Assembly: GCA_019695215.1 (NCBI GenBank)
Contig: JAIBAK010000004.1
Location: forward strand, 1-64,000
Direction of reading: 5' to 3'
Source: Bacteroidia bacterium
GTDB lineage: Bacteria; Bacteroidota; Bacteroidia; UKL13-3
DNA: 64,000 nt
Each line of letters starts with the position of its first letter. The first letter of the stretch is position 1. Shown here one piece after another: positions 1,584 through 33,828 of this stretch. Position numbers and translations under genes: made by a program. The notes under the pieces are model-generated. The model was given only the letters and a program-made list of their open reading frames with translations, was not told the DNA's origin and ran no database searches.

Positions 1584-1607
1584 ACAGGGGCTTTTTATTT
1601 CCCCTGT
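1584..1607 (-). terminator. Hairpin after the last tail gene
   Basis: ACAGGGG and CCCCTGT form a perfect 7-base stem with a 10-base loop, directly downstream of the stop codon at 1614. There is no clear T run on the minus strand, so it may be an RNA-stabilising 3' hairpin rather than a terminator. Confidence 0.4.
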
Positions 1608-1613
1608 TGTTCG

Positions 1614-2919: not shown

Positions 2920-2935
2920 ATCGTGTTGTTTTTTA

Positions 2936-5019: not shown

Positions 5020-5025
5020 TGTGTG

Positions 5026-6189: not shown

Positions 6190-6208
6190 ATCGCTTAAAA
6201 AATTATTG

Positions 6209-9557: not shown

Positions 9558-9561
9558 TCCC

Positions 9562-11499: not shown

Positions 11500-11518
11500 T
11501 TATCCGTAACTTTGTGCT

Positions 11519-12224: not shown

Positions 12225-12230
12225 GAGCGT

Positions 12231-12665
12231 TTAAATTGTGTTCCAATCAATGTGTGAGCACAGCAGTTTGAACTCCGTAACAATGGAGCCATCGCCCTGC
12301 TTTACATCAACACCGTTGTTTGTAAACTCACAGTTGGAAATGCGGTCGCGCAGGATAACACCCGAGGGCAACTCATATTCAACCGTAATGTCAAACGGTG
12401 CAATGTCCTGAATGCGGTCTCCGGGTTTCAGGGAGGCCATAAGGCCGCGCACCTCCTCCTGATAGAGTTCGATGCTTGCCTCAGCCTTGTAGTTCATTTC
12501 CTCGCGCCCTACGGGGTATTTGTTTGCCCCGTATGCGTTCTGCTTGTCCACGATGTCGTTGTAGGCAATACGTTTGATGCCTTCGAGGTCGCGGCCCATT
12601 GTGTTGGCTGTTGTTCTGTTCCAGCCAACAAGGGTTCCGAATTTATTTTTTACTACTTCTGCCAT
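12231..12665 (-). CDS. Tail tube protein
   Basis: 144 aa, directly after the sheath gene (sheath stop 12668), the invariant sheath-tube order of contractile tails. Contains NYKAEASIELYQEEVRGLMA and a beta-rich C-terminus (FDITVEYELPSGVILRDRIS, CEFTNNGVDVKQGDGSIV), matching Mu gpM-like/XkdM-like tube proteins in size and beta-strand pattern. Confidence 0.7.
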   Translation of the reverse strand: MAEVVKNKFGTLVGWNRTTANTMGRDLEGIKRIAYNDIVDKQNAYGANKYPVGREEMNYKAEASIELYQEEVRGLMASLKPGDRIQDIAPFDITVEYELPSGVILRDRISNCEFTNNGVDVKQGDGSIVTEFKLLCSHIDWNTI

Positions 12666-12667
12666 GC

Positions 12668-13912: not shown

Positions 13913-13916
13913 GTGC

Positions 13917-14369
13917 TTACTCTCCTTTTCCTTCGGTTAATTTTTCGATACCCTTCTCAATGGCCGCCACCGCAGATTTGCGGTTAGGGCCGCCCACCTC
14001 AGCAAGCAGCATTTCTTTCAGCACATTAATATTGGTTTCTTCGGCCACCTTTTCGGTAATGGCTTTAACGGAGAGCGGCAGGTTTAAAACTTCACCTCCG
14101 CCATTGTTGCCGGTGTTATCCGCATTGGCTGTTTGTCCGGCACCTTCACCTGCGTTTGCATCAGGCGTTTTGGCTTTGGTGGCAGCCGTTTTTGCTTCCG
14201 GCTCTTCTTTATCGAGCTGGTACACGGTGAGTTTTTTACCAGCATGAAGCCGGGCGCGGCTGTCGAGCAGGAATATTTGCCCGTCAGTGGTGCCGTAAAG
14301 TTTTTTCACGTTGAGTTCCTCAAACATGGGCGCTGCAATTTTTTGCAGCTCTGCTTTTGATATGTTCAT
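13917..14369 (-). CDS. Late structural-region protein, unknown (gp35-like position)
   Basis: 150 aa. Residues 1-60 contain AAPMFEELNVKKLYGTTDGQIF, then an Ala/Gly/Thr linker, then a C-terminal helical segment EETNINVLKEMLLAEVGGPNRKSAVAAIEK resembling a HeH/LEM-type helix-extended-helix fold (two pieces). The linker separates two small domains. Mu has a similar-sized gp35 between capsid and sheath. Function unknown; head-tail interface is a reasonable guess. Confidence 0.55.
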   Translation of the reverse strand: MNISKAELQKIAAPMFEELNVKKLYGTTDGQIFLLDSRARLHAGKKLTVYQLDKEEPEAKTAATKAKTPDANAGEGAGQTANADNTGNNGGGEVLNLPLSVKAITEKVAEETNINVLKEMLLAEVGGPNRKSAVAAIEKGIEKLTEGKGE

Positions 14370-14860
14370 TACTTGAATAATTTTTTAAAGGTGAAGTATG
14401 CAATAAGTGCAAGCCAAAAGATGCCACCGCTCCAAGCTAAAAATTTGATAAAGCCCGGAACGTATCGCTCCCTTATGGTAATCGTTTTTGTTTCTGTTTG
14501 GCTACGTGCCCGGTATTCTTTCTCCTGCGTATGGATGAGCTGCGCTTTAATGGCGAGGGTGTCGCAATCGCAATCAGCTTTTATTCCACCCGCATACCTG
14601 GTAATGGTGAGGCGGGCATTTTTAAACTGCTTTGTAACCGGGTTTAAATCCGGTTTTAGCAGGCTGTCGATAGGCAACCATTCAGAAACCTGTGTAGCCT
14701 CGGTTTTGAACACGGTATCAGTAACGGTAATCGTTTTTGATACGAACACCGTATCGTGGGTTTCACGGGTGGTTACTTTGGCCGTTCGGCATCCCTGTGA
14801 AGCGATGAAGGCCACGCAAACCAGCAACAGGAAAAGTGTACGTGTGTTAAATTTTTTCAT
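14369..14860 (-). CDS. Candidate unimolecular spanin (u-spanin)
   Basis: About 163 aa from MKKFNTRTL (an ATG 18 bases upstream is also possible). It has an N-terminal lipoprotein-like signal (LFLLLVCVAFIASQGC, imperfect lipobox), a periplasmic stretch, and a C-terminal membrane segment (FLAWSGGIFWLALIAYFTF) followed by KKLFK. Outer-membrane lipid anchor plus inner-membrane C-terminal segment in one chain is the u-spanin plan known from phage T1; such proteins fuse the two membranes in the last lysis step. It overlaps the amidase gene by 14 bases. Confidence 0.6.
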   Translation of the reverse strand: MKKFNTRTLFLLLVCVAFIASQGCRTAKVTTRETHDTVFVSKTITVTDTVFKTEATQVSEWLPIDSLLKPDLNPVTKQFKNARLTITRYAGGIKADCDCDTLAIKAQLIHTQEKEYRARSQTETKTITIRERYVPGFIKFLAWSGGIFWLALIAYFTFKKLFK

Positions 14861-15290
14861 ACTCTTTATTTGCATCAAAGCAGGGACAAACCTTTATCCA
14901 CTCGAACGATTCAATTACACCGTTGCCGTTCTTGTCAGGGCTGAAATCTCGGTGCCCTACGATCTTGGCTTTGGGAAATTTTGCCCGCAGTTCGCGCAGG
15001 ATGGAAAGCAGTTGCGCTTTCTGTGCATCCGTGCGGGTGTCAACACCCTTGCCCTTTACGATCTTGCCGCCCATGTAACTTACATGCACGCTTTTCGCAT
15101 TGTGGCCCTGCACACCGTTGGCAATTTGTTCAAGAGGAGTAATGTTGTGCCTTGCACCGGAGCCGTCAACAACAATGTGGTACCCGTTGTTTTTCCATCC
15201 GTTTGAACGGAAACCGGCTATAAGCTGCGGTATCGTCTCGTTGGGACTTCCACCGGTGCAATGCACAACTATGTAGTTTATCTCCCGCAT
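14847..15290 (-). CDS. N-acetylmuramoyl-L-alanine amidase endolysin
   Basis: 147 aa, T7-lysozyme/PGRP (amidase_2) family. Zinc-ligand pattern is visible: His in YIVVHCTGG, His in VGHRDFSPDKNG, and Cys in WIKVCPCFD; Tyr in NNGYHIVVDGSG is the usual catalytic-region segment. It cleaves the amide bond between muramic acid and the peptide stem. It has no signal peptide, so it needs a holin (6568-7119). It is coupled to the spanin candidate downstream. Confidence 0.85.
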   Translation of the reverse strand: MREINYIVVHCTGGSPNETIPQLIAGFRSNGWKNNGYHIVVDGSGARHNITPLEQIANGVQGHNAKSVHVSYMGGKIVKGKGVDTRTDAQKAQLLSILRELRAKFPKAKIVGHRDFSPDKNGNGVIESFEWIKVCPCFDANKEYEKI

Positions 15291-15293
15291 CCG

Positions 15294-15629
15294 TTAGTTG
15301 AGTTGCTTGTCGCTTACGTGCAGGAATTTTGAGCCGTCATACTCGTACAGCGCAGTGTAACTTTTGTCTGCGGTTATGGTTAGGGCGTTGCCTTGCATGC
15401 CTGTGCCGGGAGTAAGTGAGCTGGTCTCAGATGCACTCACTTTGATGAGCAGTTGAGCACCTACCGGCACATGCTCATTCACATTCAGGTTGAGCGTGGA
15501 ATCGTCTTCCATTTCACCGATGGTGAGCTGCGTTCTGCTGTTCTTAATGGTAACAGAAATTTCGCTGTCGTATTCTGCGCTGATCTCGTCAACCGGGCCG
15601 TGAGGCCACTGGTATGTGTTTTCTGACAT
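15294..15629 (-). CDS. Capsid-associated protein, unknown (decoration candidate)
   Basis: 111 aa, beta-rich (EISVTIKNSRTQLTIGEMED; LNLNVNEHVPVGAQLLIKV; LTPGTGMQGNALTITADKSY). Immediately downstream of the major capsid gene, a position commonly held by head decoration or fibre-like head proteins. No family recognised. Confidence 0.6.
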   Translation of the reverse strand: MSENTYQWPHGPVDEISAEYDSEISVTIKNSRTQLTIGEMEDDSTLNLNVNEHVPVGAQLLIKVSASETSSLTPGTGMQGNALTITADKSYTALYEYDGSKFLHVSDKQLN

Positions 15630-15655
15630 TACTATTGTCTCCTTTCAGTTAAGGG

Positions 15656-16543
15656 TTAAACAGTACCGCTTACCAGTGCGCCCATGCCTTCGTTTTTGAT
15701 GGCAACGCAGATAAAGTACAGGCGGAAACCGACTCTGTTTTTCCTGTTGTCCGGGTCAGTGTCTGCAACGCTCATGTACCTTTTCACGCTGCCTGCGGCT
15801 TTAGCCAGGTTGCCAACGTAGGCCACCACTGATGCAGGTTTGCCGGTAGGCACAGCACCGAAAGCCTCTTTGGTAAGCGTGCCTGAAACAACCTTGTAGC
15901 TTACGGGTGTGAAGTCCTCCCATATTTCAAAGCCCAAATAGTTGGCTGAAATCAAACCGTCTTTGATGTTCTGATACTGGGTATAGAACGCACGGTCTTC
16001 GAGCAGCAGGTCGTTTACGTGGTCAGAGCACAGGATGAGCATGCGGCCTTTTTTGGGTACGCCCAAATTGTCGAGCCTCTTTTTGTAGTTGATCAGGTCG
16101 GTTGTGGTAAGGCGCTTACGGCCTGTTCCATCGTCTGCACCGGTGGTGGAAATTACCGGGGTAGTTGAGCTGTGCGCAGCCGGGGCAATGGAGAACAGCG
16201 CATGTTCTGCGGTTTTGTCTTCCAGCTCTTCGCGGTGCTGTACCTGCACATCGTTGATTTTCTCGTAAGGCAAGGTTTCCAGCTCATCGTCACTCACGTC
16301 TGTGTTGGTGGTGTCGTACTTGTTCAGGGCAAGCGTTGCGTAATCGTCCTCACGCTTGTTGCTCACGATAGGGTAAATGTTGTTATTGATAAGCACCTCG
16401 GGGGCTGCGCCCTGCTTAGGTACTTTAATAACATCTTTGCTCACCCAGTTGGGTTTCGATTTTACCTGACCTAACCAGGTATGTTCATGCCTGAACTTTT
16501 TAATAAGTTCTTTTTCGGCTAACTCGTTTACTAATTGTGCCAT
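15656..16543 (-). CDS. Major capsid protein (Mu gpT-like)
   Basis: 295 aa, follows protease/scaffold as in Mu (I/Z then T). N-terminus AQLVNELAEKELIKKFRHEH; central segment AALNKYDTTNTDVSDDELE, with HK97-type features such as DRAFYTQYQNIKDGLI and GFRLYFICVAIKNEGMGAL at the end. Forms the icosahedral shell. Confidence 0.75.
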   Translation of the reverse strand: MAQLVNELAEKELIKKFRHEHTWLGQVKSKPNWVSKDVIKVPKQGAAPEVLINNNIYPIVSNKREDDYATLALNKYDTTNTDVSDDELETLPYEKINDVQVQHREELEDKTAEHALFSIAPAAHSSTTPVISTTGADDGTGRKRLTTTDLINYKKRLDNLGVPKKGRMLILCSDHVNDLLLEDRAFYTQYQNIKDGLISANYLGFEIWEDFTPVSYKVVSGTLTKEAFGAVPTGKPASVVAYVGNLAKAAGSVKRYMSVADTDPDNRKNRVGFRLYFICVAIKNEGMGALVSGTV

Positions 16544-16578
16544 TTATGTTTGAAAGTTTTTTGTCCAGTACCTTTGAT

Positions 16579-17706
16579 TTACTTACCTCCGAAGTAGTCC
16601 TTTTCGAGCTGACCGGCACGCTCGGGGTCGTCCTTGCGCATCTGATTGTAAGCCTCCGGGTCTTTATCGAGGTAGTCTTCGAGCTTCCAGTCCTTGCGGC
16701 TGGCCTCGAGGTCAGCTTTCTTTTTGTTTTTGTCCAGCTCGGCAGAAAGCTGCGTTTGTACCGGCAACGATTCAATGGCATCTGCTGTGCCCTCGGGGTC
16801 GTTGATGTATGCCTGCACATAAATTTCCTTTTGCGAGGCGGGGATTTTCTTTGCAGTAATGCCAGCAAGCACCGCTTTTTCAGCCTTTGCCTTTGCTTTT
16901 GCCTCTGCACTTTTTTGGGCGCTATCGTTGTCGGCAGCCTTCTTTTTCATAGCCTCCAGCGCCTCTTTAATTTGCTCGTCCGTTGCGTCAGCATCCAGAC
17001 CGAGACTCGAGATTAGCTCGTCTCTTTCCATATACTTTTTTTTGGGTTTTTGTGTCTGTTTTGAATTGGGCGCTCCGCAAGCCTGTAACATGGTTGCGGC
17101 TTCTGCGTCTATCGGTTCGTCTGTGCCTGTCACATCGTCAACGAGGCCAGCTTCTTTTGCTTCCGCTGCTGTCATCCACTTGTCACCGGCTGACCACATT
17201 TTTTCTATCTCGTCTTCGGTCTTGCCCATTTTGGTGGCGTATGCCTTGCGATATTCTGCGGTAATGTCCTTTAACAATTTCAGGTCGTTTTCAATCTCAG
17301 TTTCATTTCCACCGGTGGGCATCATTGGTTTGTGAATCATAAACTGAGAGTTGGGGCGTGCCTCGGAAGGGAAGTCGGTGAGGAACCTGGTTGCCGCACT
17401 GGCAGCCATTGCACCCACCTGAATTTGCACGCTGTCGAAACGTTTAAGCTCTGCAACCATTTCGCTTGCATCAAACACGTTTCCGCCCGGTGAGCTGAGA
17501 TAAACCACAGCGTCTTTTATGCCCTTGCCTAAAAACTCGTCAACAATCTCGGCCACCTTTTCAGCATTCAATGTTTCAGAGCCGAGGTAGCCGCGTATCT
17601 TAATAAGTGCTTTGCCGCCTTTGGCTTCGGCAGTCACAGTTCCCGTTTTTTTAACGGGCTTATCTGCGGTTATTCTGAGCGTTTTTTTCAGCTTCATCGA
17701 GGGCAA
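16579..17706 (-). CDS. Head maturation protease with scaffold domain (gpI-like)
   Basis: 375 aa. Residues 25-190 are ClpP/S49-like: VVYLSSPGGNVFDASEMVAE gives the oxyanion loop, MAASAATRFL the catalytic serine (AAS), and MIHKPMMPTGG the histidine. Residues 230-375 are a highly charged, Lys/Glu-rich coiled coil (AEAKAKAKAEKAV) that serves as scaffold. First gene of the leftward late operon, facing the terminase gene across a 148-base divergent region. Confidence 0.8.
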   Translation of the reverse strand: MPSMKLKKTLRITADKPVKKTGTVTAEAKGGKALIKIRGYLGSETLNAEKVAEIVDEFLGKGIKDAVVYLSSPGGNVFDASEMVAELKRFDSVQIQVGAMAASAATRFLTDFPSEARPNSQFMIHKPMMPTGGNETEIENDLKLLKDITAEYRKAYATKMGKTEDEIEKMWSAGDKWMTAAEAKEAGLVDDVTGTDEPIDAEAATMLQACGAPNSKQTQKPKKKYMERDELISSLGLDADATDEQIKEALEAMKKKAADNDSAQKSAEAKAKAKAEKAVLAGITAKKIPASQKEIYVQAYINDPEGTADAIESLPVQTQLSAELDKNKKKADLEASRKDWKLEDYLDKDPEAYNQMRKDDPERAGQLEKDYFGGK

Positions 17707-17854
17707 AATTCATCTGCTTTAAAGGCCCGCGCAAATCGGTTCCACGTTTCAGGAACTCATAACTCCCGAATCAGGATTGAAGCAATACCGAAATGGAATA
17801 AGCAAAAAAATACACTCCGTTTACAACCCAATTTTGTGACACAAATAGCACGAA
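17707..17854. promoter_or_regulatory. Divergent late promoter region with palindrome
   Basis: 148 bases separate divergently read virion operons. A perfect palindrome TTTGTG-A-CACAAA (17833-17845) lies 10 bases before the terminase start. It is a candidate operator for a late activator or repressor. No textbook -7/-33 pair is obvious. Confidence 0.45.
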
Positions 17855-18355
17855 ATGGCAGATACCAAAAAGCTGAAAAAGGCTGCTGAAATAATGTTCA
17901 TAGAGCAGGGGAAGCAACAAAAAGAAATTGCGCAAACCCTCGGTGTTTCTGAAAAGACATTAAGCAACTGGGCAAAGGCAGGAAAGTGGAAAGAGAAGCG
18001 AATAGCCCGCATGAACTCGGCAGAGAAACGGACGGAAGACATAAAGCAGGTTATTGGAAGTATAACAGAACGCAGGCTCGAGATAGCCCGGGAAATTGTT
18101 GAGGCAAAAAGTGCGGGAGATAAAAAGCTGGTGGCCGCGTTACAGATTGAGGCGGTTGCCATCGGGCAAGAAGTTGCCATGTACTCGAAGGCGTTGCAGG
18201 TTGTTGAGAAAGATAACAAACCAACGCTTGCCATGTACCTGCAAATAATGGACGAGATTTTCAGAGCCATGCAGGCGTTTAGCCCGTCCCTTCACCTTCA
18301 AACATTAGACTTTCAGGAAAGCCACTTGGCTGACATAACCGAGAAACTTGCATGA
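17855..18355 (+). CDS. Terminase small subunit / DNA-binding protein
   Basis: 166 aa. N-terminal HTH (QQKEIAQTLGVSEKTLSNWAKAGKW), then a helical region (ITERRLEIAREIVEAKSAGD). Overlaps the large terminase gene by 4 bases. HTH-plus-coil and location fit the Mu-type small terminase (DUF1804-like), which recognises phage DNA and recruits the packaging motor. Confidence 0.7.
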   Translation: MADTKKLKKAAEIMFIEQGKQQKEIAQTLGVSEKTLSNWAKAGKWKEKRIARMNSAEKRTEDIKQVIGSITERRLEIAREIVEAKSAGDKKLVAALQIEAVAIGQEVAMYSKALQVVEKDNKPTLAMYLQIMDEIFRAMQAFSPSLHLQTLDFQESHLADITEKLA

Positions 18356-19872
18356 GGGCAAAAGACAAAGTTGCGGTCGAGCGGTACAAAAAGAAATTAG
18401 AGCTTATACGGAGCGCTGGTTTATCTGTAACGTTTGAAACAGCAAAGGAAAAAAGGGAAATCATTGAGCGATGCAAAACGGACATTCCGTTTATGGTCGG
18501 ATATTTATTTCCGCATTATGCAACATCTGAATGCGCAGACTTCCAAATTGAATTTGCAAAAAAGGTTGGCCGAGACCAGAAAATAAAAGCCTTTTGCCAA
18601 TGGGGAAGAGGTCAGGCAAAGAGTGTTTGGAACGATATAATTATACCGTTTTGGCTGCACTTTATAATGGGCGAACCCACGTACCTGGTTATTATCGGCA
18701 GCAGCTCCGATAAAGCAGAGCAGCTTATCGAGGACATCAAAGCCGAGCTGGAAGTAAACCCGAGAATGATTGCGCACTTCGGAGAACAAAAACAGTTGGG
18801 AAGTTGGGAGGGTAAATTCTTTGTAACCAAAGGCGGATTTATCGGGCAGGCTTTGGGCATTGGCAAAAACGTTCGCGGTTTGAGAGTGCGCGGAAGGCGG
18901 CCAACGCTTCTTGTAATTGACGACATCGAAACCGAAGAGCTGAACAATAACCCTGAACGACAAATCAGGTTAGCCAAGTGGGTTGAGAAAAGTTTAATTC
19001 CTACAATGGACGGCCCTGTACGGAGGTTGATATATGCACACAACCGCTATGCTGAAACAATGGTTCAAACCATATTGCAGGAGCGGCACCCCAAATGGTT
19101 TGTTCACGATGTGCCCGCATACGACCCCATAACATACAAACCTACATGGCATCAAAAATACCCTGATAACTATTTCAGGGATTTGGAAGACGAGATAGGA
19201 ATTATAGCAGCGTTATCCGAGTACAACAACCAACCGCATGTTGAGGGGGAGATATTCAAAGAGGAACAAATACAGTGGGGCGATATGCCTGCGCTGAATC
19301 ATTTTAAAATTATCGTTGGGCACTGGGACGTTGCTTATGCAGGTACAAAAACAAGCGACTACAATGCGGTTGAAATAATGGGTTTGAAGGATAAAGACTT
19401 TTGGCACATTGACTGTTTTGTAAAGCAATGTAAAATGCGCGATGCAATCGCGTTCATGTGCGATGTGCAAAAGAACCTTCCAAAAACTGTTATTATCCAC
19501 TGGCAGTTTGAAGCACAGTTTTGGAACGATGAAGTAGAGCGAACAATTGATGAGGTGCAACAAGAAATGGGCGTGCTGCTGCTCATAAGCAAAATACCAA
19601 CACCCACCGGAAACAAGTACGACAGGATATTGCAATTACAGCCCCGGTATCAAAACAGCCGGATATACTATAACAACAAAAAGAAATCGCACAAGGACAC
19701 GCAAACAGGCTTGGCGCAGTTATACGCAACACAGCCGGGAAACAAGAAAAAAGACGACTGGCCTGACGCGCAACACCAGTGCATTGAATTTCTGCAAAAA
19801 TATATCCCTATGGGTAAAGCATCGGGCAATTTTCAAACGGGGCGAATGCTTCCCCACAATGAAAGGATATGA
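18352..19872 (+). CDS. Terminase large subunit
   Basis: 506 aa. ATPase motifs: WGRGQAKSVW (P-loop-like GRGQAKS), and LLVIDDIETEEL as Walker B. C-terminal nuclease domain has HWDVAYAGTK, and KKDDWPDAQHQCIEF near residue 480. Mu gp28-like. It packages DNA headful-fashion into proheads, including flanking host DNA in Mu relatives. It is coupled to both neighbours by 4-base overlaps. Confidence 0.85.
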   Translation: MRAKDKVAVERYKKKLELIRSAGLSVTFETAKEKREIIERCKTDIPFMVGYLFPHYATSECADFQIEFAKKVGRDQKIKAFCQWGRGQAKSVWNDIIIPFWLHFIMGEPTYLVIIGSSSDKAEQLIEDIKAELEVNPRMIAHFGEQKQLGSWEGKFFVTKGGFIGQALGIGKNVRGLRVRGRRPTLLVIDDIETEELNNNPERQIRLAKWVEKSLIPTMDGPVRRLIYAHNRYAETMVQTILQERHPKWFVHDVPAYDPITYKPTWHQKYPDNYFRDLEDEIGIIAALSEYNNQPHVEGEIFKEEQIQWGDMPALNHFKIIVGHWDVAYAGTKTSDYNAVEIMGLKDKDFWHIDCFVKQCKMRDAIAFMCDVQKNLPKTVIIHWQFEAQFWNDEVERTIDEVQQEMGVLLLISKIPTPTGNKYDRILQLQPRYQNSRIYYNNKKKSHKDTQTGLAQLYATQPGNKKKDDWPDAQHQCIEFLQKYIPMGKASGNFQTGRMLPHNERI

Positions 19873-20288
19873 TTTATTTAACACAAGACGACCTTAATTT
19901 AGAGAGCTTCGAGCGCTTCATTACCGAAAGCACGGGAGGCGACAGCTCCATTGTTGACAATGCAGAAAAGAAAGCAATTGCGCACTGCAAAACATTCCTG
20001 AGCCGTTACGATGTGGAGGACGTGTTCGATGAAGAGGAGCCGATACGTGACGAACACCTCGCAAACATTATTGCGATAATTACCTGCTACAAAATCATTA
20101 GCCGAAATGCTGCGCGCAAGGTGCCGAGCGATGCCCGTGAGGATTACAAATGGGCGCTCGAGCAACTGGAAAAAATACAGACGGGTCGCGTAACGCTGGA
20201 ACTTCCGCCCCGCATTGATTCCAGCACCGGCAACGCGGTAAGCAACGCCATATTCGGAAATATATCCAACCCTGATTTTTACATTTAA
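19869..20288 (+). CDS. Head-tail connector, Mu gp36-like (DUF1320)
   Basis: 139 aa. MIYLTQDDLNLESFERFITE opens in DUF1320/gp36 style, followed by the helical pattern AIAHCKTFLSRYDVEDVFDE and LANIIAIITCYKII. In Mu this gene lies after the capsid; here it lies between terminase and portal. Confidence 0.7.
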   Translation: MIYLTQDDLNLESFERFITESTGGDSSIVDNAEKKAIAHCKTFLSRYDVEDVFDEEEPIRDEHLANIIAIITCYKIISRNAARKVPSDAREDYKWALEQLEKIQTGRVTLELPPRIDSSTGNAVSNAIFGNISNPDFYI

Positions 20289-20292
20289 CCCT

Positions 20293-21552
20293 ATGGGCAT
20301 ACAAGACACACGTTTATTTAAGTGGCTGCAACGAGAAGTTTTTAGCCTCACTGACGACAGAACAATAATGGTGGAAAACGCACTGAGGCGTGGCGCTGAC
20401 GATAAGAAAAGCAGCAAGCTGGACTTTGAGGCAAAGAACATGGCCGCAAAGACTTTGAAAGATTGGAAAGATGCCATAAGCCAGGCCACCGACCCCGAAG
20501 AGCCAAACCGCGAAGCGCTGGAACTGCTTTACGAAAACCTGATGCTCGACAACCACCTCGCCAGCACCATTGAAACACGCATACTGTTTTGCCAGCGCTC
20601 GGCATTCAAATTCATTGGCGAGGACGACAAGGAGAACCCCGACATTTCAAAACTGTTTGAAAGGCCGTGGTTCAATGACCTTATTTGGAAAGTGCTGATG
20701 AGCCAGTTTAAGGGAACCACCCTGCTGGAAATTTTCGAGCTGAATGCCGAAGGTGAACTCGGTTGCATTACCGAAATACCGCAGGCGCATTTCAATACGG
20801 TAAAAGGGCTTATTTTAAAGTCACCGGGCGACACAACCGGGTGGGACTATCGCGAGGGAGCTTTCGCACAAAACTACCTTCAAATTGGACGCAATGACGA
20901 TTTAGGGCTATTGGCGCAGATAGCAACCATTGTGCTTGCCAAAAAACTGGGCATGGGTTCTTTCCTCGATTACGTGGACAAATTCGGAGTACCGCCCATT
21001 TTCATTACCACCGACCGGGAAGACGACAACCGGTTGAAAGAGCTGTGGACTGCTGCCTCAAAATTCAAGAGCAACAATTTCATGGTTGGACGCGGGCAGG
21101 AAAAATTCGAGGTTGGTAATGTAGGCGGCCCGGGCGTGGCTCCTCACCAGGCGTTAATCGAACTTTGCAATAGCGAAATAAGCAAACGCATACTGGGAGG
21201 ATCAGGGCTTACCGATGAAAAGAGCTTTGTAGGTGCTGCCGAGATTCAGTTCCGTTTGGCACGCGACCGTTTCGAAGCCGATAAACTGCTGTTTAAATAC
21301 ATTTTCAACGCCCATGTAAAGCCCATGCTAATAAACCTCAGCCCTGTGTATGCTCCTTTGGCAAACCACCGTTTTGATTGGGATAACACGGAAAGCCTTA
21401 CCCAAATCCAAATTATTGACACTATACAAAAGTTTGGAAGTCTTTACGACATTGACCCGGAATACATAACCAAAGTAACAGGCATCCCGATTACCGGCAT
21501 TAAGCAAAATATTCCTACGCTGCCGCCCGGAGGTGGGGACGCGGGAAAGTAA
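20293..21552 (+). CDS. Portal protein (Mu gp29-like, DUF935)
   Basis: 419 aa. Matches DUF935 portals: LLYENLMLDNHLASTIETR, FEGTTLLEIFEL-like segment (SQFKGTTLLEIFELNAEGEL), GMGSFLDYVDKFGVPPIFIT and KRILGGSGLTDEKSFVGAAE. Forms the dodecameric ring through which DNA is packaged. Followed by the gpF-like gene as in Mu. Confidence 0.85.
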   Translation: MGIQDTRLFKWLQREVFSLTDDRTIMVENALRRGADDKKSSKLDFEAKNMAAKTLKDWKDAISQATDPEEPNREALELLYENLMLDNHLASTIETRILFCQRSAFKFIGEDDKENPDISKLFERPWFNDLIWKVLMSQFKGTTLLEIFELNAEGELGCITEIPQAHFNTVKGLILKSPGDTTGWDYREGAFAQNYLQIGRNDDLGLLAQIATIVLAKKLGMGSFLDYVDKFGVPPIFITTDREDDNRLKELWTAASKFKSNNFMVGRGQEKFEVGNVGGPGVAPHQALIELCNSEISKRILGGSGLTDEKSFVGAAEIQFRLARDRFEADKLLFKYIFNAHVKPMLINLSPVYAPLANHRFDWDNTESLTQIQIIDTIQKFGSLYDIDPEYITKVTGIPITGIKQNIPTLPPGGGDAGK

Positions 21553-21587
21553 CAAACGAGAGGCTGTTGCGTGCCTCTCTTAAATTC

Positions 21588-22784
21588 ATGTTTTCCCGCG
21601 TAGAGGCATACTACGGAAAGCCCGGGCAATGCGGACACCCTGAGTGCCAAACACCCGAGCTTGAAGCCATTGACCTGAGCGGTTGGGAAAAGCTGATAAA
21701 GCACCTTGCAACCGAAATGCAACAGGGAAATTTGAAGCCCGCGCAACTGAACCGGGAAAGCCTGCTGAAAACATTTGAAGAGCTGAACAAAGGTGCTGCA
21801 AGCGGGTACGGCAAAGGCTGGCAAAACAGCAATGAGAAAAAACCGCCAAGCCGTGACGCATTGCTGATGCAACGGAATATTTACCGCTTCTCGGGTGCAA
21901 AGAATTATGCCATGCTTCTTGAAATGAACAGCAAGCTCACAAAGGACGGACAGCGTGTAAGTGAAGAGGAGTTTTTGCAGGAGGCTTTAAAGCTCAACAA
22001 GAACCTGAACATAAACCACGCACAGGCAGAGTATCAAACAGCGGCACACAGCAGCACAATGGCCGCACAGTGGGAGAGTTTCCAGCGCAACAAAAAACTT
22101 TATCCCAACCTGAAATATAAAACGCAAGGAGACGACCGCGTAAGGGACGACCACCGGAGCTTAGACGGAAAGATTGCACCCATTGACAGCGACTTTTGGA
22201 AACGGTACTATCCGCCCAATGGTTTCAGGTGCCGGTGCTATGTGGTGCAAACAGCAGCCACACCAAGCGAAGAAATACCAACGGAAGTACCGGAAGTAAA
22301 ACCCGAGTTCAGAATCAATGTAGGGTTGACGCATCAGGTGTTTAACGAAGATGGCAAAAGCGCTCACCCGTATTTCATCCTGTCCAAACGTGTGCCGCAG
22401 GTGAGGCAGCGCATTGAAACGTACCTGGTACAGAAGAACCGGCAGGACGTGCGCGATTGGGCTTACGGCTCATTGAGCGGCAAGTCCATCAAAAATGAAA
22501 AGGTTGCAAAGGGTATAAAGATTTCCAACGCAGACATCAAACACATTACAGGCGGTTCGCACAAAGACCAGCTCGACAGGAACGATTTGCTTTACAACTT
22601 GAGCGATGTTTTTGCCGGTGCGCAGTTTGTGCGGGAGGCACCGGAAACACGCGGGCGGTACCAATACCTCCGTTGGCTTTACTTCAAAGCTGCCGAGGGA
22701 GATTTCTTTTTTAACGTGGTGGAGCTGCGGGACGGTACATTGAAACTGCACTCGATAACAGACAAGATAAAAGGGGCCGAGTAA
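21588..22784 (+). CDS. Head morphogenesis protein gpF-like with C-terminal nuclease-like domain
   Basis: 398 aa from ATG 21588 (MFSRVEAYYGKPG); a TTG at 21567 would add 7 residues. The middle (RVRDDHRSLDGKIAPIDSDFW ... YPPNGFRCRCYV; quoted in parts) is the Mu gpF / SPP1 gp7 signature. The last about 130 residues (from DVRDWAYGSL) look like a separate module with ISNADIKHI, GGSHKDQLDRND and a terminal strand-rich segment, the form of phage Barnase-EndoU-ColicinE5/D-RelE-like nucleases (PBECR) that are known to be fused to head proteins. If so it might be injected with DNA. Confidence 0.7.
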   Translation: MFSRVEAYYGKPGQCGHPECQTPELEAIDLSGWEKLIKHLATEMQQGNLKPAQLNRESLLKTFEELNKGAASGYGKGWQNSNEKKPPSRDALLMQRNIYRFSGAKNYAMLLEMNSKLTKDGQRVSEEEFLQEALKLNKNLNINHAQAEYQTAAHSSTMAAQWESFQRNKKLYPNLKYKTQGDDRVRDDHRSLDGKIAPIDSDFWKRYYPPNGFRCRCYVVQTAATPSEEIPTEVPEVKPEFRINVGLTHQVFNEDGKSAHPYFILSKRVPQVRQRIETYLVQKNRQDVRDWAYGSLSGKSIKNEKVAKGIKISNADIKHITGGSHKDQLDRNDLLYNLSDVFAGAQFVREAPETRGRYQYLRWLYFKAAEGDFFFNVVELRDGTLKLHSITDKIKGAE

Positions 22785-22789
22785 CTTAT

Positions 22790-22811
22790 CCTATGGTTAG
22801 CAAACCATAGG
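22790..22811 (+). other. Hairpin between gpF-like and gpG-like genes
   Basis: CCTATGGTT-AGCA-AACCATAGG is a perfect 9-base stem with 4-base loop in the 66-base gap of the head operon. There is no T run, so it more likely affects mRNA processing or stability than termination. AGGAGG follows but is about 37 bases from the next start. Confidence 0.6.
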
Positions 22812-22850
22812 AGGAAACCCAAGCCCCTTTCAGTAACAAAGGTAATAAAA

Positions 22851-23369
22851 ATGGCGATAGTAAACAGGGAAATTGATTTTGAGCAGATAGGCAGAGACCT
22901 GCTTAAACAGATACCGCACGATGTGGGGCAAATGGCCCTGAGCCATTTTAAAGGCAGTTTCAGAAAGCAGGGTTTTACCGATTACGGTTTTGTTGCATGG
23001 CCCAAACGCAAAGACCATTTTTCGCACAAAATACTAATGCTTACAAACTCGCTGATGCAAGACCTTAAAGTGCGAGAGGAACGCATGAGCAGAATTGAAC
23101 TGAGCACAACATTACCATACGGAATAATACACAACAACGGTGGAGTTATCAGGCTCCGGGTATCGGAAAAGATGCGCAAGTTTTTTTGGGCCATGTTCAA
23201 GAAAACACAGGACGAGAAATGGAAAGGACTTGCCACTACTAAAAAGCGTTACTTAACAATACGCATTCCCAAACGGCAATACATCGGGCACAGCCATGTG
23301 CTCAACAAAAAGATTGATAACTACCTGTTGAATAAGATTGAAACAGCATTTAAAAAAGGATTAGGATAA
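22851..23369 (+). CDS. Virion morphogenesis protein, Mu gpG-like
   Basis: 172 aa. Features HFKGSFRKQGFTDYGFVAW, IKLSTTLPYG-type segment (SRIELSTTLPYGIIHNNGG) and C-terminal RIPKRQYIGHS, all typical of the phage virion-morphogenesis (tail completion) family. It acts in joining head and tail in Mu (gpG). Starts after a 66-base gap with a hairpin. Confidence 0.75.
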   Translation: MAIVNREIDFEQIGRDLLKQIPHDVGQMALSHFKGSFRKQGFTDYGFVAWPKRKDHFSHKILMLTNSLMQDLKVREERMSRIELSTTLPYGIIHNNGGVIRLRVSEKMRKFFWAMFKKTQDEKWKGLATTKKRYLTIRIPKRQYIGHSHVLNKKIDNYLLNKIETAFKKGLG

Positions 23370-23370
23370 T

Positions 23371-23922
23371 ATGCAAAACTGGAAAGATTTATACCTCGAG
23401 ATAGCCGACAAGTTGGCCGAAATAGAGGGCATCAAATGGGTTGACCTTTGGCATAACCAAATAACATTTTTGGACGATGAGCACGAGTTCCCAACCCCGG
23501 CCATATTCCTTGCCTTCCGAACCATAGCCACGGAAGACGCAGGGCAGAAACTGCAAACCATCCGCCTTCAGGTGGAAGCATACCTGTATTACGAAACGTT
23601 TGCCGACACCTACAAAGATTCGGTTAACCAGGATTCGGCCCTCGCATTTTTGGAACACCTGAACAGCATTTATGCAAAGCTGCATGCCACCACCGGAGAT
23701 AACTACTCAGAAATGCGGAGGACGGGTTTTAACCCTGTTGACACGGGCGGAGCTGGTAACTTATACCTCACCATGTTTGAATGCAACCTGGTTGATGCTG
23801 CGGCCTTCGTTGAGTACGAACAATCGGAAGAGCTTGAAGTAACCCCGGAAAAACCGGACGAGCCTTTGCCGGATGCAGAGCCACAGGAAACAGGATTGCC
23901 GGAGTTTGTTATACCCGATTAA
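23371..23922 (+). CDS. Probable tail terminator (gp37-like)
   Basis: 183 aa. MQNWKDLYLEIADKLAEIEG, then FPTPAIFLAFRTIA and RLQVEAYLYYETF, as in minor-tail/terminator proteins that cap the tail tube; C-terminus is acidic and proline-rich (TPEKPDEPLPDAEP) and probably disordered. It is the last gene of the rightward operon and its end overlaps the convergent 61-aa gene by 14 bases. Confidence 0.6.
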   Translation: MQNWKDLYLEIADKLAEIEGIKWVDLWHNQITFLDDEHEFPTPAIFLAFRTIATEDAGQKLQTIRLQVEAYLYYETFADTYKDSVNQDSALAFLEHLNSIYAKLHATTGDNYSEMRRTGFNPVDTGGAGNLYLTMFECNLVDAAAFVEYEQSEELEVTPEKPDEPLPDAEPQETGLPEFVIPD

Positions 23923-27290: not shown

Positions 27291-27602
27291 CTATGTAAAC
27301 TCGTATCTTTCCCCTTCCTGAACTATGGTTGTTGTAAAAGGGAACTTGTCTTTAGGCACCTGCTCAATCATTTCCATGAGTGTGACTGAGCCGTTAAACA
27401 CAACTCTCTGAACTCCGTCAACAGTTACCTGCATGTGCAGGCACTTGCCTTTTCCTTCATACTTGGAGTTCTCAATCTTGTAGGCATGAACAGTTATCTG
27501 TTTGTTGAATAGCCTTTGTATTTGAATTTTCTGACCTATAAACACACCGTTAGTGTTAGGTTTAATTCCGAGGTCTTTAAAACTAAATGCTTGTGTTGTC
27601 AT
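27291..27602 (-). CDS. Small protein downstream of DGR RT
   Basis: 103 aa, beta-rich (NGVFIGQKIQIQRLFNKQIT; CLHMQVTVDGVQRVVF; FPFTTTIVQEGERYEF). Overlaps the reverse transcriptase gene by 20 bases and so is probably co-translated. Not similar to Avd, the four-helix accessory protein of classical DGRs; could be an OB-like nucleic-acid binder by strand pattern only. Confidence 0.6.
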   Translation of the reverse strand: MTTQAFSFKDLGIKPNTNGVFIGQKIQIQRLFNKQITVHAYKIENSKYEGKGKCLHMQVTVDGVQRVVFNGSVTLMEMIEQVPKDKFPFTTTIVQEGERYEFT

Positions 27603-28548
27603 GTAATAGCTTTTTCAATAAATGTTTGCTGTTGCAATGCTTTGCCCAACCATAGTAAGAGGCTATGGACGCGGGGTTTCTCCTCCGGGCAAGCATCCGT
27701 GCGAATCTTTGTTTAATTGTTTTGCGTAATCGTGTGTGTGTATGATAAAATACATAGCCCACAAAGTCAATTCCACGAGCTGAAACCGGGAACACCTGGT
27801 AGTTGTCTTTTACCGTTAATTTTAAGTTGTCGGAAAGGTAGAAACGTATGTCAGTTAAAAGCTGGTGCAGCGCTGCTTTATCCGAAGACAGTATAACAAG
27901 GTCGTCTGCATACCTGAAATAATACTTTACTCGCTTCACCTCTTTGAGCCAATGGTCGAAATAGCTCAGGTAGAAGTTGGCAAAATACTGGCTCAGGTAG
28001 TTTCCAATGGGTACACCTTTCGCGCTGTCTATAATCTCATCGAGTAGAACCAGCAACCTACGGTCTTTAATTTTCTTTCGTAACAGGCTTTTCAGTATGT
28101 CGTGGTCAATGCTGGGGTAGAATTTTTTTACGTCCAGTTTCAGGCAGTAGGTGGTACCGGCTACGTGCTTCAAGGCTCTGCGAACTGCGGAGGCGGCAGC
28201 GTGAATGCCTTTGCCCTTTATGCAGCTATATGTATCGGCAGTGAAGTTTGCAACGAACACAGGCTCCAAAACATTCATTATGGCGTGGTGTACGATGCGG
28301 TCGGGGAAATACGGAAGGCAATAAACATCGCGTTCCTTTGGATCGTGAACCTTGAATGTTTTGTATGCTGATGTGCGAAATGTTCCAGTTTTTAATGATT
28401 CGTGCAGCGAAAGGATATTTGCCTGCCGGTTCCGGTCGTGGTATTGTACCCCATATTGATTTGATTTGCCTTTCCTTGCTTTTAGGTCTGCCAGCTCGAG
28501 GTTTTCAACCGAGATAATATTTTCGTACAGATTTTTTAGACGTTTCAT
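27583..28548 (-). CDS. DGR reverse transcriptase
   Basis: 321 aa. RT motifs in order: DPKERDVYCLPYFPDRIVHH (motif 1-2 region), YCLKLDVKKFYPSIDHDIL (motif 3/A), GVPIGNYLSQYFANFY (motif 4/B), YFRYADDLVILSS (motif 5/C, catalytic YADD) and GIDFVGYVF (motif 6-7). The IGN..SQ form of motif B is typical of diversity-generating retroelement RTs, as opposed to group II introns or retrons. It copies the template RNA (28650-28726) with errors at adenines and the cDNA replaces variable repeats in two genes upstream. No thumb/maturase X domain is seen. Confidence 0.92.
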   Translation of the reverse strand: MKRLKNLYENIISVENLELADLKARKGKSNQYGVQYHDRNRQANILSLHESLKTGTFRTSAYKTFKVHDPKERDVYCLPYFPDRIVHHAIMNVLEPVFVANFTADTYSCIKGKGIHAAASAVRRALKHVAGTTYCLKLDVKKFYPSIDHDILKSLLRKKIKDRRLLVLLDEIIDSAKGVPIGNYLSQYFANFYLSYFDHWLKEVKRVKYYFRYADDLVILSSDKAALHQLLTDIRFYLSDNLKLTVKDNYQVFPVSARGIDFVGYVFYHTHTRLRKTIKQRFARMLARRRNPASIASYYGWAKHCNSKHLLKKLLHDNTSI

Positions 28549-28649
28549 TCCTTTGCTTCAATCAGGTCGCGTTCGCAATTGCTACCAGCGCCCTTTTTGT
28601 GTTATGTTATTTTTTGCAACTGTTGGCATGGCCTGCGCTGTTTAAGTTC

Positions 28650-28726
28650 TTAGCGTAGTCGGGAGCTGACATTCGAGTTCGAGTTCGTGTTATCGTAATC
28701 GTAGTACGAGAGGCCTGAGCCTGCAC
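28650..28726 (-). repeat. DGR template repeat (TR)
   Basis: Non-coding copy between the RT gene and the 129-aa target gene. On the minus strand the core reads like codons for AGSGLSYYDYDNTNSNSNVS, enriched in AAC/AAT. It aligns with VR1 and VR2 over about 65-75 bases without gaps; in the 63-base core 10 (VR1) and 13 (VR2) differences all fall on TR adenines. Confidence 0.9.
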
Positions 28727-28776
28727 ACGCACACGGAGCGCTCAAACGCCCTCACAGCGCACAGCCGGGTTTCTTT

Positions 28777-29166
28777 CTATTTAAGCAGAAACATGCTTTC
28801 GTACAACTTTCTGAAAGGGGGGTGTGTGCCTGCATACCGGGCCAGCTCTGCCGATTTAAAGCAAAGGCGGGAGCCGACAAACGAGTACGAGCCCGGGTAA
28901 CCGTAATCGCAGCACGAGAGGCCCGAGCCCGCAAGTTTTTTGGCTGAGGCTTTCACATCGAACCAAGGATAGTATTTCCATTCATCGTGGTTGTTCCAGT
29001 CCGGTTGCCAACCTTCATTCAATGCCTCTGCAACCACTACGGCTTTGTAGTAATCAACTACTGCCTGCGCGTGTCTTTCGGGAAGCCCTGACACATTGGG
29101 TAATTTGTTTGGGTCTAAGCCCACCGCTTTAAAAGCGTCTGCAACTGTTTTGATTTTGTGTTTCAT
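28777..29166 (-). CDS. DGR variable protein 2
   Basis: 129 aa. N-terminal helical segment (VADAFKAVGLDPNKLP), then ALNEGWQPDWNNHDEWKYYP, the VR-encoded stretch SGLSCCDYGYPGSYSFVG, and a conserved tail GSRLCFKSAELARYAG. The variable residues (C, C, G, Y, P, G, Y, F) correspond exactly to TR adenine codons. The tail differs from paralogue 1 after YAG (THPPFRKLYESMFLLK). Similar GSRLCFKS proteins are frequent in Bacteroidota phages without an adjacent RT; binding target unknown. Confidence 0.85.
   Translation of the reverse strand: MKHKIKTVADAFKAVGLDPNKLPNVSGLPERHAQAVVDYYKAVVVAEALNEGWQPDWNNHDEWKYYPWFDVKASAKKLAGSGLSCCDYGYPGSYSFVGSRLCFKSAELARYAGTHPPFRKLYESMFLLK
28861..28932 (-). repeat. Variable repeat VR2
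   Basis: Inside the 129-aa gene. Thirteen of 17 adenines in the 63-base TR core are substituted here and no non-adenine base differs. Flanked downstream by a stretch shared with VR1 but not TR. Confidence 0.88.
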
Positions 29167-29177
29167 TTCAATGGGGT

Positions 29178-29654
29178 TTAAATGATGAAAAAATCTGCGT
29201 AGATGTCAGCGAACTGACTGCCTGCATACCGGGCCAGCTCTGCCGATTTAAAGCAAAGGCGGGAGCCGACATCCGAGTACGAGAGCGAGTGATCGTAATC
29301 GAAGTACGAGAGGCCCGAGCCGGCAGTCATATCAAAAAATGGGTAGTATTTGTACTCACTGTTATTAGTCCAGTCGGGTTGCCAGCCTTCGTTCAGAACG
29401 GAACGTATAAAGCTGATCTTGGCAATGGCGTTGATGGCCTTTTGCTCTTTGTTCACAGGGCTTGCATAGGGCAGCACATCGTTGGGGTTTACACCTCGGA
29501 TGGCGCAGGCATCCTCGAATGTTTTTACCATGTCTGTAATCTTCTCGGAGAATGTTTTCTCACCGAAGAGGTCGGATAACAATTTTTTACCGACTTCGTT
29601 GGCAGCCTGGTAAGCTGCGAGGGCATTAGCCTTTGTAATTTCCAGTGTTTGCAT
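29178..29654 (-). CDS. DGR variable protein 1
   Basis: 158 aa. Begins MQTLEITKANALAAYQAANE, GKKLLSDLFGEKTFSEKI (alpha-helical N-domain), KTFEDACAIRGVNPNDVL, then GWQPDWTNNSEYKYYPFFD, the variable stretch SGLSYFDYDHSLSYSDVG and tail GSRLCFKSAELARYAGSQFA. Eleven bases separate it from variable protein 2, so both are probably on one mRNA. It has no signal peptide, coiled coil or fibre repeat. It sits in the early operon, far from tail genes. Confidence 0.85.
   Translation of the reverse strand: MQTLEITKANALAAYQAANEVGKKLLSDLFGEKTFSEKITDMVKTFEDACAIRGVNPNDVLPYASPVNKEQKAINAIAKISFIRSVLNEGWQPDWTNNSEYKYYPFFDMTAGSGLSYFDYDHSLSYSDVGSRLCFKSAELARYAGSQFADIYADFFII
29252..29323 (-). repeat. Variable repeat VR1
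   Basis: Inside the 158-aa gene. Ten of 17 adenines in the 63-base TR core are substituted and no other base differs. Codon examples: TR AAC to CAC, AAC to CTC, AAC to TAC, AAT to GAT. Confidence 0.88.
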
Positions 29655-29866: not shown

Positions 29867-30382
29867 TTAGGCGGTTACCTCCTTTTTTGGCTCTACGAAA
29901 AAGGTCTCGTCCTGGTCAACCAATATTCCCACCTTCGGGAACAGGTTTGCCACTTCCGGTGCATCGCGGTCGGCAAGCAACCGGTCTTTTGCAGGCTCTT
30001 CGGTTGTGCGAACGTACTCGGGCAGGAACTCTTTTAACAGGTTGGTAATGCTGCCCCACGTAAAACCTTTTCGGGTTTTCAGCTTCGGGGTTCCGGTGCG
30101 GAAACCGAGCACACCATGCGTAAGCTCCATGCTCTTTTTGTTGCCAAAATCAGCGCGGTTGTTCTCAGCGTAGCTTTGCAGTTTCTCGAACTCTTCCTCT
30201 TTCACGTCTTGCAACTCCGTAAGTTCATCCTGATACTTTTCGCGTATCTTGGTAATCTCCACGTCCATTTTAGCCGTTAGCTGCTTGGCTCTTGCGTCTG
30301 CCTTTGCATAGGCTGCAAACGCTTCCTCCGCTGTGTTTTTGTCAACTGTGCCGGTAAGCACTTTCTTTTTTACTCTTGTCAT
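29867..30382 (-). CDS. gam: Host-nuclease inhibitor Gam-like protein
   Basis: 171 aa. N-terminal helical region rich in Lys/Glu (KIREKYQDELTELQDVKEEE) followed by ELTHGVLGFRTGTPKLK and TWGSITNLLKEFLPEY, the Mu Gam (PF07352) pattern. Gam is a Ku-like protein that binds double-strand DNA ends and protects linear phage DNA from exonucleases. In the early operon as in Mu. Confidence 0.85.
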   Translation of the reverse strand: MTRVKKKVLTGTVDKNTAEEAFAAYAKADARAKQLTAKMDVEITKIREKYQDELTELQDVKEEEFEKLQSYAENNRADFGNKKSMELTHGVLGFRTGTPKLKTRKGFTWGSITNLLKEFLPEYVRTTEEPAKDRLLADRDAPEVANLFPKVGILVDQDETFFVEPKKEVTA

Positions 30383-32533: not shown

Positions 32534-33400
32534 TTAGTTGAGCTTGGTTAATTCGTTATAAATCCGGGTTAAGCTGCCCTCTGTTTTACGCAGCATCTTT
32601 TGCACGTCTGTGCCTTTGGGTGCATTCGCCTGAATAATCAGTGCGGCTTGTATGCTGGTGAATTTTTCCTCCTCTTCTTTGCCGTGAGGCACAGCTTTTT
32701 GGTAGCGCTTACCAAAACGCCTGAATATTTCGGCAAAGCCAACCTTTTTGTTGTCTATGGCCCTGCGCATTTTCACTTGCAGGCCATCAGCTCCAAGCAT
32801 ATACCAGCCACATGAGCGCTCGGTTGCATTCCACAGCGCTTTTAGCTCGAGGAAAGCATCATATTGCAGGTCGCCCGCTTCATCAATAACAACAATGGGG
32901 TTGGCAATGGTGTTCAGGTAATAAACCAAATCCTCGTACACGTCTGCGTACCTGCCTGTGTGGCCTACGCCAAACTCTTTTGCAATAGAGCGTACAAACT
33001 TTTGCTTGCTCTTCACCTGGCTGCCATCAATGTAAACCGCGTTTTCGTTCTTGCGCACAAAGTCTTTGGCGGCAACGGTTTTACCGATGTCGGCTTTGTC
33101 GCAGAAAAGCCCGGCCATGCTGTTTTTCTTGCAGTGTTTGAGCTGCTCGGTTATGTAAGCATACACGGGGGTTACTGCAATGTTCCATGAGCTTTGACCG
33201 CGCAGGTTTACGCCAAGCGTGCGGGCAATGGTAATCCATTTTGCGTCCGACAAAACCTTATCGGTGTCTCCGCCTGTAATACGGCTGTACTGTGCCACGT
33301 TGATGCCGAGGCTTACAGCGTGTTTTCTGTCGCTGCCAAACTGCGGGCGTGCCGCCTTTACTGCTGCAACAATTCTGTTTTGGAAATCTTTTGTAATCAT
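32534..33400 (-). CDS. MuB-like transposition ATPase
   Basis: 288 aa. N-terminal HTH-like region (HAVSLGINVAQYSRITGGDT), then AAA+ motifs: GLFCDKADIGKTVAAK (P-loop with Asp for the first Gly), NPIVVIDEAGDLQY (Walker B), GADGLQ... and FRRFGKRYQKAVPHG sensor region. MuB binds target DNA and recruits the MuA transpososome. It directly follows the transposase gene, as in Mu. Confidence 0.8.
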   Translation of the reverse strand: MITKDFQNRIVAAVKAARPQFGSDRKHAVSLGINVAQYSRITGGDTDKVLSDAKWITIARTLGVNLRGQSSWNIAVTPVYAYITEQLKHCKKNSMAGLFCDKADIGKTVAAKDFVRKNENAVYIDGSQVKSKQKFVRSIAKEFGVGHTGRYADVYEDLVYYLNTIANPIVVIDEAGDLQYDAFLELKALWNATERSCGWYMLGADGLQVKMRRAIDNKKVGFAEIFRRFGKRYQKAVPHGKEEEEKFTSIQAALIIQANAPKGTDVQKMLRKTEGSLTRIYNELTKLN

Positions 33401-33420: not shown

Positions 33421-33823
33421 TTAAAGGTCTTCTGTTGATTTGCGGGCGTACTCATCGGCTGAGTAGTTGTTGAGCAGGTCTTCGAGGCTCTCTTCTTGTT
33501 TCTCCTGCTCTTCCACTACGGTGGCGGTTTGCTGTGCAGCTTCGTTCACCACTTCGGGGTTGATAAGGGTAAGTTTGGCGAGGTTCTGTTTGCCTTCTTT
33601 TACTTTGGCATCGAATCGGCCCACATACGCGGCCTGCTCTTTATAGGCCACATCGTCCTGCCCGGACACCCACTCGGCTTTTGCTTCGTTGTATTGGTTA
33701 ATTCGCTGGCAGGTGCCAATAAATACGTCACCCTGATATACGAACACCTCGTCAATAACACCGTCAGCGTTGGGGAGGTAATAAGCATGCACATCGTAGT
33801 TGTTAGGTTGCAGGCGTTCCAGT
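33421..33823 (-). pseudogene. MuA-like transposase, C-terminal remnant
   Basis: Reading frame open from the junction (LERLQPNNYDVHAYYLPNAD; last phage base 33823) to the stop at 33421, about 133 residues. Contains the beta-barrel end of the MuA catalytic core (GVIDEVFVYQGDVFIGTCQR) and the C-terminal MuB-interaction region (EEQEKQEESLEDLLNNYSAD). The DDE catalytic domain and DNA-binding N-terminus, roughly 500-550 residues, are missing. Direct fusion to host sequence makes a functional transposase impossible from this locus. Confidence 0.8.
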
Positions 33824-33828
33824 AAAAA
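33824..33828. repeat. Target-site duplication, copy at early end
   Basis: AAAAA, matching 643-647; base 33829 supplies the sixth A of the restored host run. Confidence 0.7.

Follow-up and report, generated by a model that had tools for sequence, protein, structure and literature searches.

A diversity-generating retroelement with one template repeat and two target genes in a Mu-like prophage of a Bacteroidia bacterium

The window analyzed here is a 64,000-nucleotide stretch of a Bacteroidia bacterium (contig JAIBAK010000004.1, positions 1 to 64,000) that contains a Mu-like prophage with a diversity-generating retroelement (DGR). The DGR has a reverse transcriptase (RT) gene, one non-coding template repeat (TR), and two adjoining target genes, each with a variable repeat (VR), and all parts are on the minus strand. 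A first-pass annotation had read the RT, TR, and two targets as a complete DGR. This is borne out by the placement of the RT within the DGR clade, by TR/VR differences that fall only on adenines, and by a landmark resembling an initiation of mutagenic homing (IMH) sequence. That annotation did not describe an accessory gene, a structured RNA in the TR-RT spacer, the position of the targets in an early operon, or the fact that the transposase gene is largely missing. The features of the cassette are as follows.

29178..29654, minus strand: target gene A, 158 amino acids, phrog_11581, supported by the family alignment
29256..29325, minus strand: VR-A, 70 nucleotides, differences from the TR at A-facing sites only; diversified core 29271-29315
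28777..29166, minus strand: target gene B, 129 amino acids, same family as A (phrog_11581)
28864..28933, minus strand: VR-B, 70 nucleotides, differences from the TR at A-facing sites only; diversified core 28879-28923
28656..28725, minus strand: non-coding TR; mutable core 28671-28715; 3' end resembling IMH* at ~28654-28668
28562..28638, minus strand: structured RNA in the TR-RT spacer, identified by covariation, a covariance model (R1), and subthreshold matches to Rfam RT-14 and RT-17
27583..28548, minus strand: DGR RT, 321 amino acids, with motifs VPIGNYLSQ and YADD; identified by phrog_1423, a PDB match, and a tree
27291..27602, minus strand: candidate accessory protein, 103 amino acids, phrog_19665; overlaps the RT stop

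The TR and VRs were compared over 70 nucleotides, the longest stretch without a non-adenine mismatch. The alignment is gap-free and contains 19 adenines and 51 other bases. VR-B differs from the TR at 15 of the 19 adenines and VR-A at 12, and none of the 51 other bases is changed in either VR, which agrees base by base with the earlier statement that no C, G, or T of the TR differs. When both VRs are pooled, all 27 differences lie on TR adenines and 0 of 102 non-adenine sites differ. The probability of every mismatch landing on an adenine by chance is 5e-12 for VR-B and 5e-9 for VR-A. A recount over a 63-nucleotide core returned the figures given previously, with 10 of 17 adenines changed in gene A and 13 of 17 in gene B. 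About 30 residues follow the VR in both target genes, so the VR lies near the C-terminus, as expected of a DGR target. No further RT and no further TR or VR copy was found in the host assembly.

The adenines of the TR can be sorted into two groups using 166 TR/VR pairs from related viral loci, aligned on a conserved GTCAGC and numbered from its C. The 3'-end adenines at positions +1, +8, +10, and +12 nearly always face one fixed VR base (A>G in 150 of 151, A>G in 129 of 130, A>C in 21 of 21, and A>T in 98 of 99, respectively), and an adenine at the 5' edge shows nearly the same constancy (A>G in 92 of 96). Upstream of the GTC, adenines are faced in the VRs by any of the four bases, with an entropy of mostly 1.3-2.0 bits. 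The fixed adenines look like differences between the VR and TR forms of the landmark (IMH and IMH*) rather than products of mutagenesis. Of the 17 adenines counted in the first-pass annotation, 3-4 are fixed VR-type differences. The mutable core in the window is 45 nucleotides long with 14 adenines, of which 10 are changed in B and 7 in A, and VR-A and VR-B differ from each other at 9 of the 14. The earlier claim that both genes had been mutagenized at adenines independently therefore stands in that two genes have been diversified to different sequences, but not in its count, because not all of the adenine differences appear to be mutagenic.

The IMH-like 3' block is 15 nucleotides long and identical. 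Its identification is comparative, VR-VR identity being 98% at positions +0..15 across 58 loci. The 42 nucleotides directly past it (28822-28863 and 29214-29255) are also identical between VR-A and VR-B in the window, where the clade median is ~50%, and this suggests that a target 3' end was copied recently. These 42 nucleotides were considered as an extended IMH and rejected, since they are only ~50% identical across the 58 loci.

The RT matches phrog_1423 with an E value of 8e-128. Its best PDB match (E 1e-48) is 8ub7, in all likelihood the structure of the BPP-1 RT, compared with E 1e-20 for an RT from a group II intron. Motif 4 reads VPIGNYLSQ, that is, [IVL]GxxxSQ in place of QGxxxSP. A tree was constructed from 50 RTs, of which 38 are DGR RTs and the other 12 were drawn from genomes of relatives and from a phage. 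A 100/99 branch separates the 38 from the 12, and the window RT is placed deep inside the DGR side. It belongs to a 12-row set (98/90) whose RTs come mostly from two-target cassettes. Retrons and group II introns had been named as groupings that would speak against a DGR, and the window RT groups with neither.

Eighty viral-contig loci with RTs 66-76% identical to the window RT were compared. A recognizable TR is present in 76 of the 80, and 69 of these 76 have at least two VRs. In most of the one-VR loci, the contig ends a short distance from the RT. The gene order is nearly always a ~156-amino-acid gene, a ~131-amino-acid gene, the TR, and the RT. A tree built from 54 targets separates the A and B positions, with 4 label changes compared to 18.2 in shuffles (0/500), and the targets cluster by position and not by phage. 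The branch dividing the A and B lineages is weak (76/59). Because the two positions separate in this tree, the target duplication is considered old. Two targets are the rule in this clade and represent two old paralogue lineages, and the earlier suggestion that they were a special feature of this copy is not upheld. Two-target DGRs also make up ~13% of cassettes in one study (PMC10743442), and Bacuni phages have two DGR targets (PMC8143477). Some relatives contain extra distant VRs of the same TR (L025 2467; L064 2230; L070 707; L058 14238). The cassette is also present in isolate genomes and metagenome-assembled genomes of Chitinophagaceae, Flavobacterium, Emticicia, Dyadobacter, Apibacter, and Dysgonomonas; isolates with it include Flavobacterium sp. 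ASV13, Emticicia sp. BO119, and Dyadobacter sp. Leaf189.

VR heterogeneity limited to TR adenines, which the first-pass annotation had proposed to look for, was seen in sister phages. Between contigs L058 and L059, 20 of 71 A-facing VR sites are changed, compared to 0 of 144 other VR sites and 1 of 9506 sites outside the VRs. The pairs L034/L035 and L034/L037 differ at 8-12 A-facing sites and at 0-1 sites outside the VRs, the former in the first VR only and the latter in the last VR only. One target has been altered in these near-identical contigs while the neighboring target is unchanged. The A-only TR/VR pattern is present in the relatives as well. Changes at TR-adenine sites that affect a single VR at a time, between contigs otherwise almost the same, indicate that the relatives are active; by extension, this particular copy may be active.

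The TR-RT spacer contains a hairpin (TGCC..GGCA), a run of adenines, and a second hairpin with constant RGUA and GAA sides forming an internal loop. This loop resembles the bulged-G (loop E) motif. Across 45 sequences, 94.9% of cells are paired compared to 77.8 when shuffled, and both sides have changed in 10 of 13 pairs. Covariation is 0.585, compared to 0.231 when shuffled and <=0.12 when slid. RNAalifold returned only the first hairpin from the full alignment, in which MAFFT had misplaced the 3' arm of the second, and returned the full structure from a trimmed alignment. Matches to the covariance model R1 lie shortly before the RT in 62 of 80 genome loci, and likewise in crAss-like phages, vir525, vir215, BalMu-1, and LBR48.

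The window spacer scores below the Rfam gathering thresholds (26.1 of 48.1 bits for RT-14 and 21.1 of 40.4 bits for RT-17) and is not assigned to either family. RT-14, RT-17, and RT-18 do score above gathering between TR and RT in BalMu-1, in three genome DGRs (Clostridia/Dysgonomonas), and in LBR48, and R1 matches there too (L113 2834-2977; L175 5888-5989; L173 5902-5988; L163 5920-6002; L117 702-777). RT-14 and RT-17 have the same RGUA/GAA hairpin layout as the window RNA. The covarying spacer RNA, whose location and motif relate it to the orphan families RT-14, RT-17, and RT-18, is possibly new. The BPP-1 spacer is required for cDNA synthesis, and by analogy the hairpins described here most likely bind the RT or position it for priming.

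A phrog_19665-type gene is found at constant spacing to the RT in 76 of the 80 related viral loci. When its profile was searched without regard to the RT in 395 genomes of the phylum, five clear matches were obtained (the window's own included), and all five are just downstream of an RT. GenBank phages with this family are ANMV-1 and vir525 only (E 5e-23 and 2e-25, respectively, with the hidden Markov model), and in both the gene directly follows a DGR RT with unrelated targets. Because it remains RT-adjacent despite those targets, the gene is linked to the RT rather than to the targets. The AlphaFold model of the 103-amino-acid protein has a predicted local distance difference test score (pLDDT) of 92. 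By analogy, the protein most likely takes a role like that of Avd, binding RT, RNA, or cDNA, and phrog_19665 is possibly a new RT-linked accessory family. The family was also sought among the genes that follow the RT in crAss-like phages, Perkons, Versailles, LBR48, vir215, and hankyphage, and none of these belongs to it. In the gut Bacteroidales loci L136-L149, longer proteins ~400 nucleotides after the RT match the accessory profile piecewise, in two or three segments, and the DGR target type there differs.

Both targets belong to phrog_11581, a family without an assigned function. A membrane-like segment scores above threshold in 3 of 98 targets, and the N- and C-termini of the target model are helical. 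A structure search gave no PDB match, and the viral library returned only uncharacterized phage proteins. In ~20 related loci, MuA, MuB, or ATPase homologues lie upstream on the same strand and head genes lie downstream on the opposite strand; no late genes were found upstream of the cassette among the related loci examined. The cassette belongs to the early region, and its targets are small soluble proteins within the early transposition operon, an arrangement that is possibly new.

A phrog_11581-type gene is also diversified by a different DGR, that of LoVEphage (L239, OY731444.1). One TR there serves a tail protein and, by a second VR ~16 kb away on the opposite strand, the phrog_11581-type gene; the stretches concerned are 3043-3155 on the plus strand and 19055-19167 on the minus strand. 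The second VR has 12 differences over 113 nucleotides, all at TR adenines. The phrog_11581-type gene lies near methyltransferase and Lar-like genes. This pattern supports, without proving, a non-tail role for targets of this type. A text search of PMC8525569 returned no mention of the LoVEphage DGR.

The Mu-like character of the prophage, as given in the first-pass annotation, was confirmed by MuB, Gam, contractile tail, and Mom-like genes, with MuA present as a stub only. The prophage features outside the cassette are as follows.

29867..30382, minus strand: Mu Gam-like end-protection protein (PF07352, E 2e-33)
32534..33400, minus strand: MuB-like transposition protein (phrog_296, E 5e-33)
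33424..33825, minus strand: MuA-like transposase, C-terminal stub only (homologues 661-676 amino acids)
693..23922, both strands: late module (Mom-like gene, contractile tail, head, packaging)
693-1457, minus strand: DNA modification gene of the Mom-like type, at the late module's far end (phrog_1384, E 6e-41)

Among the late genes are those for a tail sheath, a baseplate hub, a head protease, the major head protein, and terminase, besides the Mom-like gene. Only the last ~135 residues of MuA are kept, and the stub adjoins host-like genes at ~33.83 kb. No other MuA copy was found in the assembly. Either the left prophage end has been deleted or the MuA stub marks an assembly join. Elsewhere in the window, three tandem similar genes at 44834-46451 on the plus strand encode ~170-amino-acid lipoprotein-like host proteins (...PPYSQIGANTMGCL...).

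The cassette shares some parts with known DGRs. The Bordetella BPP-1/BIP-1 system (mtd-avd-TR-brt) has the same RT family, A-specific TR/VR change, an IMH-type 3' block, and a TR that precedes the RT at a short distance, separated from it by a spacer. It differs in that its RT is ~37% identical to the window RT, the window targets are unrelated, small, and early, and the window has another accessory gene in the place of Avd. The R1 RNA was not found in the BIP-1 stretch. The crAss-like DGRs (cr55_1, cr52_1, and crAssphage LMMB) have RTs 50-60% identical to that of the window and the R1 spacer RNA (E 2e-9 to 3e-5). Unlike the window DGR, they have a tail or tail-collar target, no accessory-family gene was found beside their RT, and they are not Mu-like. 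The target next to a crAss-like RT ends ...CGSRLVYRP, resembling the VR end of the window targets.

Hankyphage p00 is likewise a Mu-like Bacteroidota phage with a DGR. The first-pass annotation had drawn a comparison with the hankyphage group, and this does not extend beyond "Mu-like". The hankyphage RT is 35% identical, its one large tail-fiber target is unrelated to the two of 129 and 158 amino acids here, and no R1 RNA precedes its RT. Its single target protein exceeds 2,000 amino acids and an Avd has been described (PMC6199706, PMC12135933); no Avd match (PF05635) was found in the window genome. The archaeal viruses ANMV-1 and vir525 have the accessory orthologue directly after the RT, and vir525 has the R1 RNA, but their targets are Mtd-like AdtA or tail proteins and R1 is marginal in ANMV-1 (E 0.12). 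A putative Avd is drawn for ANMV-1 (PMC4372165), and the gene after the RT is annotated as hypothetical in its record. The nd4/nd12 (tentaclins) and Bacuni phages also have one TR and two target genes (PMC10743442, PMC8143477). Their targets differ in being C-type lectin tail or adhesin-like proteins, and Bacuni phages have Avd.

Taken together, the locus holds an intact DGR from a lineage of Mu-like Bacteroidota phages, with a single TR for two targets that are old paralogues. It probably works with the help of a spacer RNA and an Avd-like partner, and the targets are probably intracellular early proteins. The RT would reverse-transcribe the TR-spacer transcript with errors at template adenines, and the spacer hairpins 3' of the TR would bind or position it for priming. 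The mutated cDNA would then replace the VR core of A or B independently by way of the identical 15-nucleotide block, with the 103-amino-acid protein filling the role that Avd has in BPP-1. Because the targets are small, soluble, and in the early transposition operon, the binding surface being diversified would serve within the cell, early in infection or in lysogeny (host takeover, anti-defense, or exclusion), and not on a tail fiber. A broader reading, offered tentatively, is of a DGR subtype with its own non-Avd accessory protein and conserved spacer RNA that hypermutates paired small intracellular early proteins, making them hypervariable cytoplasmic binders against host or defense proteins instead of receptors.

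Several observations weigh against these proposals. The VR region of the target is poorly predicted by AlphaFold (pLDDT 50-59), and the operon position is compatible with a virion or surface role. The OB-like (oligonucleotide/oligosaccharide-binding) fold of the accessory protein is drawn from non-significant Foldseek matches (best E 0.08), many of them OB folds. The accessory gene is not beside the RT in clade members L058-L060 and L081, where it may be non-essential or replaced. Finally, PF05635 misses the described Avd of hankyphage, so the sensitivity of that search is limited and the absence of Avd is not proven. An ordinary receptor-switching DGR, with targets that are adhesins, tail-tip subunits, or virion decoration despite the early operon and that alter host range as in BPP-1, fits the prevalence of tail proteins among phage DGR targets (PMC8144416) and the crAss-like target end noted above. 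We regard it as somewhat unlikely, since the targets lie among early genes in this clade with no late gene found upstream, membrane-like segments are rare among them, and the LoVEphage TR mutates both a tail protein and a distant phrog_11581-type protein, suggesting different roles. A reading in which the 103-amino-acid product is a common kind of small phage protein, such as one binding single-stranded DNA, that merely adjoins the RT, with the DGR using the RT alone or a diverged Avd elsewhere, is unlikely. The weak OB-like matches do include single-stranded DNA-binding proteins, a few clade members lack the gene, and crAss-like DGRs with close RTs have no recognizable copy. This is countered by the fixed RT spacing in the clade, which extends to archaeal viruses with other targets, by the DGR linkage of every clear genome match, and by the PF05635 search, which gave no Avd match for the genome of the window or for 25 of 26 records of related phages, while the BalMu-1 Avd was found.

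The possibility that this copy is a dead remnant, with an inactive DGR and frozen VRs, has a substantial chance of being correct without being what we expect. The MuA stub with no other copy in the assembly is in its favor, as is the identity of VR-A and VR-B at +15..33 past the IMH (clade median 50%), which could have arisen by ordinary recombination. All DGR parts are nevertheless open and intact, the TR is identical to both VRs at every non-adenine site, and the MuA loss could be an assembly join. Chance or plain gene duplication without DGR mutagenesis, to which the 3' sequence shared by the VRs beyond the TR homology might point, is refuted for practical purposes by the restriction of all 27 differences to TR adenines and by the same pattern in relatives.

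Phage DGRs have been explained mainly by receptor switching. The accessory family and the covarying RNA provide compact parts with which to study the priming of DGR reverse transcription without a classical Avd. The spacer RNA also ties the orphan Rfam families RT-14, RT-17, and RT-18 to DGR template RNAs. With a widespread clade, small early targets, natural activity, and two paralogues that have been kept, the diversification of intracellular effectors by DGRs becomes directly testable.

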